A stretch of 40,960 nt of DNA from a virus. Every line of letters starts with the position of its first letter. Within the stretch, counting starts at the first letter, position 1. Below are positions 30,041-30,865 of this stretch, in pieces. The stretch lies in the IMG/VR virus record IMGVR_UViG_3300020122_000428, positions 1 through 40,960 of that record; one strand, written 5' to 3'. The notes beneath the pieces were generated by a model. That model did not search any database. It was not told where the DNA came from and was given only the letters and a program-made list of their open reading frames with translations. The translations under genes and the position numbers were made by a program.

Positions 30041-30484
30041 TTACCGCCGACAGCTCTCCGCCTTCCTGGTCTCCAGTCCTCGCAGAAACGCGTCTAGCGA
30101 TGGCGGCGCGGGAGCGCCGGAGCTTCCACATCCCGGGTCCACGCCGGGCTCGCACTGCGGCGACTGTTCGCAGGCGTCGATACAGCAGTTGTACCAGTCG
30201 GCGTTGTTGTTCGCGCAAGTCGTCAACTCGCTCTCGTTTCGACACACGCCACCGGTAGGGCCGTCCGGGTTGCAAAGCTGGCAGATAATCTGAGACGTCC
30301 ACGCGTAGTTTCGGGAGCAGCAGTCATTACAACCACTCCCCCAGTTGGCGCATTCATTGTGATAGGTGCCGCTTGTGGAGCACCCGTCGTGACAGTAGGC
30401 ATAGATGGGCGAGTCCGCGATAGCAAGACAGATCAATACGAGAAGCATGCAGAATAGGGTGCGAATCCAAACTCGTGGGCTCAT
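30041..30484 (-). CDS. exported cysteine-rich protein, 147 aa
   Basis: ATG 30484 with GGAGG 9-10 bases upstream. Sec signal peptide (IRTLFCMLLVLICLAIADS, cleavage near YA-YC, residue 29) and a mature part with about 15 cysteines in ~95 residues (CHDGCSTSG, GCNDCC, IICQLC, YNCCIDAC, PQCEPG). A Pro-rich, charged tail follows (APAPPSLDAFLRGLETRK...). The pattern suggests a disulfide-knotted domain folded outside the cytoplasm. No family recognised. Base composition is visibly less GC-rich than the operon. The end of the early leftward operon holds it and a related-looking neighbour. Confidence 0.75.
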   Translation of the reverse strand: MSPRVWIRTLFCMLLVLICLAIADSPIYAYCHDGCSTSGTYHNECANWGSGCNDCCSRNYAWTSQIICQLCNPDGPTGGVCRNESELTTCANNNADWYNCCIDACEQSPQCEPGVDPGCGSSGAPAPPSLDAFLRGLETRKAESCRR

Positions 30485-30545
30485 GTCGAAACCTCCGAAA
30501 ATGACTGTGAGGATTTGCGGCGCTGGGTTCGCGGGGACCTAGAGA

Positions 30546-30865
30546 CTAGCCTACGCACCACCAATCGCTCGGTGCACACTGATACACGTCTTTCTGACAT
30601 CCTTGATTACACGCTAATTCGTTCTGCGAGGTCTGTCTCTCGCAGGTCGTCTTTGATGGTTCATCACAGTCACGGGCTGCTCTCTGGCGCGATCAGTGCA
30701 ACATGAGCCGCAATCCCAATAGAAATTCGACCAGCCGTATCCGCCACCGCTCGTGCAGTAGGTCGTATAACTGCCGTAGGAGGGGCAGGTCGCCGTAGCC
30801 TGGGCGGGGCCGGCGAGCATGACGGCGAGGAGAACGAGAAGCGAAAAGGCGAGCAGTCGTCTCAT
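30546..30865 (-). pseudogene. exported cysteine-rich protein with apparent 1-base deletion
   Basis: ATG 30865 with GGAGGT gives a Sec signal peptide (MRRLLAFSLLVLLAVMLAGP, cleavage after AQATA) and a Cys-rich start (CPSYGSYTTYC, WDCGSCC). In the given sequence the frame then turns Arg-rich and stops at 30614. One added base in the CCC run near 30674-30676 would continue in the -1 frame as DCDEPSKTTC, ELACNQGCQKDVYQC, PSDWWCVG to a TAG at 30546, another six cysteines, for an intact length of about 106 aa. No good slippery heptamer is visible, so a deletion or sequence error is likelier than programmed frameshifting. Resembles the neighbour at 30041 in layout. Confidence 0.7.

Follow-up and report, generated by a model that had tools for sequence, protein, structure and literature searches.

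What do two cysteine-rich proteins with predicted export do for a tailed phage, and are their genes accessory cargo? The question is raised by two neighbouring genes in the window, by which we mean the whole stretch of DNA analysed, a tailed-phage genome fragment of exactly 40,960 bases from a viral record with a GC content of ~69%. The phage presumably comes from soil, judging by the IMG sample numbers. An earlier note on this DNA had described the genes as a pair of exported proteins at the end of the early operon, which would form a new kind of accessory module that might act on competitors, grazers or superinfecting phages.

The window ends in a perfect 127-nt inverted repeat (1-127 and 40834-40960), at which the last ORF, for an SbcC-like ATPase, is truncated. 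Assemblers often use 127 as their largest k-mer, so the repeat was probably made by the assembly and is not a genuine terminal repeat. Searches for an integrase or resolvase came up empty in the window, itself a fragment, and in the related contig described below, so neither gives a sign of temperate life.

A cysteine-rich gene where two operons converge

The two genes lie where a rightward and a leftward operon meet. The features of the first gene and its surroundings are:

27078-27521, plus strand: lysozyme gene (PF00959)
29965: end of the rightward late operon (head-tail adaptor, tape measure, tail proteins, lysozyme)
29991-30026: hairpin between the convergent operons, 13-pair stem, fold of -38 kcal/mol, region z -3.9
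30041: end of the leftward operon (RusA, DNA methylase and others), with genes 1 and 2 as its final two genes
30041-30484, minus strand: gene 1, cysteine-rich protein with predicted export, 147 aa (ORF, 53% identical homologue, no chance counterparts)
30170-30394, minus strand: gene 1 core, 12 cysteines common to the homologue (C31 to C105; alignments A1 and A3)
30398-30484, minus strand: predicted signal peptide of gene 1, residues 1-29, cleavage between IYA and YC, no lipobox
30492-30496, minus strand: Shine-Dalgarno sequence of gene 1, GGAGG, read from the sequence
30910-30935, minus strand: hairpin in the interval between the methylase gene and gene 2

The pair thus sits at the end of its operon, as the earlier note had placed it. 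The hairpin at 29991-30026 separates it from the rightward operon's end and is probably a terminator shared by both operons. That the leftward operon is early is suggested by the upstream RusA and methylase genes. The hairpin at 30910-30935 has a visible stem, with a region z of only -1.1, and is a possible cassette boundary. A promoter of the pair's own was not seen: positions 29900-31100 contain no match to the sigma-70 consensus, which may not be that of the host.

Gene 1 begins with a strong hydrophobic stretch after K/R, and hydrophobic leaders of the Sec type, called by a hand-written hydrophobicity rule and not by SignalP, precede both mature proteins; a GGAGG stands before each gene. 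Both features had been claimed in the earlier note and hold for both genes. No lipobox-like motif occurs within 40 residues of the N terminus in either gene product or in the gene 1 homologue. Gene 1 encodes 18 cysteines, 16 of them in the 118-residue mature part that follows the predicted cleavage site, and its product is acidic (pI 4.5-4.9). Cysteine-rich ORFs like gene 1, with or without a signal peptide, occurred in 0 of 60 random sequences with the dinucleotide make-up of the window. Gene 1 is a real gene. From its leader and conserved cysteines we infer that the product is exported and forms disulfides. AlphaFold models of two sequences were unusable (pLDDT 46 and 40) because too few relatives exist.

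A homologue at another site in a related phage

Using the 1185-aa tail protein as query, we recovered one related contig of 62,477 bases (G001, IMG/VR 3300005330_000003), to which a second, shorter contig is identical. G001 shares ~78% DNA identity with the window and is collinear with it across most of the late operon. Its first and last 90 bases are identical (L008:1-90, L011:4388-4477); the contig may thus represent a whole genome of ~62.4 kb, circular or with terminal redundancy. The late operon of this phage contains a gene 1 homologue:

L002:17850-18230, strand opposite to gene 1: homologue of gene 1, 126 aa, with its own leader and Shine-Dalgarno sequence

The two proteins are 53% identical overall and ~62% identical in the core. 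All 13 cysteines of the mature homologue align to cysteines of gene 1, 12 of them in the core. In this region dS is saturated and dN is ~0.36, indicating that the cysteines were held while much else changed. The earlier note had named a lack of phage homologues as an outcome that would speak against its idea; a homologue is present, and in a related phage.

The neighbourhoods of the two copies differ. In G001 the homologue lies between counterparts of window genes 26787-27074 and 27525-28640, a slot that is filled in the window by the lysozyme gene (27078-27521); a PF00959 lysozyme was not found in G001. At the site corresponding to genes 1 and 2 of the window, the last late gene of G001 is followed directly by a different methylase gene. 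Given the late-operon position of the homologue, members of the gene 1 family need not all be expressed early.

The codon usage of both copies deviates from that of the phage. GC3 falls below the value predicted by the codon usage of the phage itself, with z values of -8.2 for gene 1, -10.2 for the homologue, and -5.8 (N part) and -8.7 for gene 2. The low GC of genes 1 and 2, as tested on GC3, exceeds a pure amino-acid effect, which bears out the earlier remark that the pair is lower in GC than its surroundings. Two features by which morons are recognized, a different location in a relative and a composition unlike that of neighbouring phage genes, are thus present in gene 1; of the third, a promoter and terminator of its own, we see only the downstream hairpin at 29991-30026. 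Because the homologue lies in another operon, on the other strand and among other neighbours, and both copies deviate in codon usage, gene 1 looks like an accessory gene that was gained separately or moved, and that belongs to a tiny orphan family. The description as an accessory module is supported by these data, with export predicted from the leaders.

Other genes of the window share some of these properties. The RusA resolvase gene (32964-33512) is also strongly off the phage codon usage (GC3 z -6.5). The ORF at 6318-6731 starts with a Sec leader (MKKLLIATALALLAAPAMAG...), lacks a family match and has a mature part 89% identical to the ORF at the same place in the related phage. The neighbouring gene at 4450-6309 encodes a collagen-like repeat protein with tail-fibre PHROG matches and a leader-like hydrophobic N terminus, and it too has a counterpart there. 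A third codon-deviant Sec-leader gene lies at 24472-25095 (207 aa, GC3 z -8.3). Since its slot is occupied in the related phage by an unrelated Sec-leader gene (L002:14905-15315), this position looks like an exchange site for cargo with predicted export.

Searches beyond G001 add no members to the family. Pfam, PHROGs, NCBIfam, PADLOC, Rfam and PDB sequences gave no credible match, and tblastn against phage (50,697 records) and plasmid records gave none. A scan of ~85,000 species genomes with short exact peptide patterns, which excludes close relatives only, was empty. Viral-contig scans with patterns for gene 1, gene 2 and CQLC[ND]P[DN]GP, likewise short and exact and therefore informative on close relatives only, matched just G001 and its shorter duplicate, as did a separate conserved motif searched at the DNA level. 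A match in Desulfopila (L004) is due to chance, as it spans the end of an unrelated membrane protein; 296 further genomes of the same phylum were empty. The literature we searched describes no phage family resembling that of gene 1.

A second cysteine-rich gene with a broken frame

Upstream of gene 1 in the leftward operon lies a second gene of similar style:

30546-30865, minus strand: gene 2, second cysteine-rich gene with predicted export, frameshifted between 30692 and 30614
30546-30692, minus strand: C-terminal piece of gene 2 in the other frame, six cysteines
30797-30865, minus strand: predicted signal peptide of gene 2, residues 1-23, cleavage between AQA and TATC
30874-30878, minus strand: Shine-Dalgarno sequence of gene 2, GGAGG, read from the sequence

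The first frame of gene 2 stops at 30614 and holds only five mature cysteines; reading through into the other frame raises the count to 11 (5 + 6), and the two alternative frames over the C-terminal stretch hold one cysteine each. The overlap of the frames contains neither an XXXYYYZ slippery site nor a homopolymer of four or more. Programmed -1 frameshifting is therefore rejected, and the break is ascribed to mutation or assembly error. Gene 2 is accordingly described as a second cargo gene in the style of gene 1, broken in this assembly by one or the other. Gene 1 agrees with its earlier description; in gene 2 the 11-15 or so cysteines that the earlier note counted in each protein are reached only on read-through. 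The idea of a pair loses weight, since gene 2 is broken here and has no counterpart in G001.

The earlier claim that the two proteins share similar cysteine spacings is weak. The spacing of the gene 2 read-through product resembles that of the gene 1 homologue under exact matching (p<0.001), but p is 0.05-0.20 when the settings are changed or gene 1 itself is the reference, and residue similarity between gene 2 and the gene 1 family is not significant (z 0.35 to 1.26 against shuffles). We thus do not claim gene 2 as a paralogue. Its N part scores 17.5 bits against the myticin family (PF10690), below the gathering cut-off of 28.5 and with the leader included in the match. Gene 1 has no match to this family at all, and neither gene is assigned to it.

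Proposed role and known systems

We lean, with less than even confidence, towards the view that gene 1 is a moron for an envelope protein, acidic and locked by disulfides, with superinfection exclusion as its possible benefit. The product would be exported by Sec, lose its signal peptide and fold in the oxidising periplasm or outside the cell into a small acidic protein with about six disulfides. The mature form would most likely work at the infected cell's envelope, within it or upon it; it might, for instance, hide or inactivate a receptor that further phages use, or keep the cell protected until lysis. In favour of this view are the leader and ribosome site in gene 1, gene 2 and the homologue, the conserved cysteines, the different location in an otherwise collinear relative, the deviant GC3 of both copies and the receptor-blocking phage proteins described below; exclusion as the benefit is a guess. 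A broader proposal, that such phage-made, Sec-exported, many-disulfide proteins form a new class, carried by cassettes that move between sites in soil-phage genomes and working outside the cytoplasm, at the envelope to fend off rival phages or on other cells once lysis has occurred, appears doubtful to us.

The late-operon spot of the homologue near the lysis region also fits a role in lysis, in which the protein would be a periplasmic accessory factor that helps, times or regulates cell-wall breakdown. The homologue fills the slot of the window's lysozyme gene in a phage that lacks a PF00959 lysozyme; however, the window has lysozyme and gene 1 together, with gene 1 in the opposite, probably early operon, and gene 1 is without similarity to endolysin, holin, spanin and hydrolase families. 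We consider this role unlikely, if the least unlikely of the alternatives. Foreign codon usage, orphan status and a gene 2 frameshift lacking slippery site and homopolymer could instead mark a recently captured host gene with no selected phage role, already in decay. This is an improbable account of a gene that is intact in two diverged phages, with 13 of 13 cysteines selectively kept at 53% identity.

More improbable again is a diffusible effector freed at lysis, with competing bacteria or grazing eukaryotes as its target. Small size, predicted export, the many inferred disulfides, foreign codon usage and the weak similarity of gene 2 to a mussel myticin precursor point this way, but that similarity lies under the family cut-off and includes the leader, and no immunity or secretion partner is seen. 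Antimicrobial peptides are mostly cationic, and the acidic pI of gene 1 argues against a cationic defensin-like peptide. A part in the virion or its assembly, with an N terminus that only resembles a leader, is very improbable: the gene is kept in two related phages and the homologue lies among late genes, yet operon and strand differ between the phages, codon usage is foreign, no structural family matches, and virion proteins are normally not exported.

The envelope protein that we favour can be set beside several known systems, of which T5 Llp, Cor and lambda Bor and Lom, all exported and acting on the envelope, come nearest in function. Lambda Bor and Lom are exported accessory genes (morons) near late-region tail or lysis genes; Bor is lipidated, Lom resides in the outer membrane, and neither is cysteine-rich. 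Their placement resembles that of the homologue in the related phage, without sequence similarity. Lipoproteins and membrane proteins from phages of enteric hosts make up most of the accessory proteins that phages are known to export. The myticin pre-proprotein shares with gene 2 a leader and a cysteine-rich mature part, but it is an animal antimicrobial peptide and gene 2 is phage-encoded.

Llp of T5 and Cor offer a precedent for small exported phage proteins with a disulfide that act by blocking a receptor; T5 Llp, a lipoprotein, jams FhuA (PMC9586334). Like the predicted gene 1 product, T5 Llp and T1/phi80 Cor are small, phage-encoded, exported and disulfide-bonded, and their place of action is the infected cell's envelope (PMC9586334). 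They are lipoproteins with one disulfide, whereas gene 1 has 12 conserved cysteines and no lipobox; with no similarity in 50,697 phage records or PHROGs, it does not belong with them. Gp41 of the C. acnes phage Aquarius also has a signal peptide, with a non-cytoplasmic domain, and is proposed to confer superinfection resistance; it is Ltp-like, predicted to be membrane-anchored and from a phage of a Gram-positive host, and the passages considered do not report it as cysteine-rich (PMC11480721). Exported phage accessory proteins as such are known; the gene 1 family is new and very small, with an unusual cysteine-rich, unlipidated build. Its product is a small protein amenable to superinfection or envelope assays. 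If GC-rich soil phages do carry such a 12-cysteine family, mobile and without lipidation, it would broaden what phages are known to export to the host envelope.
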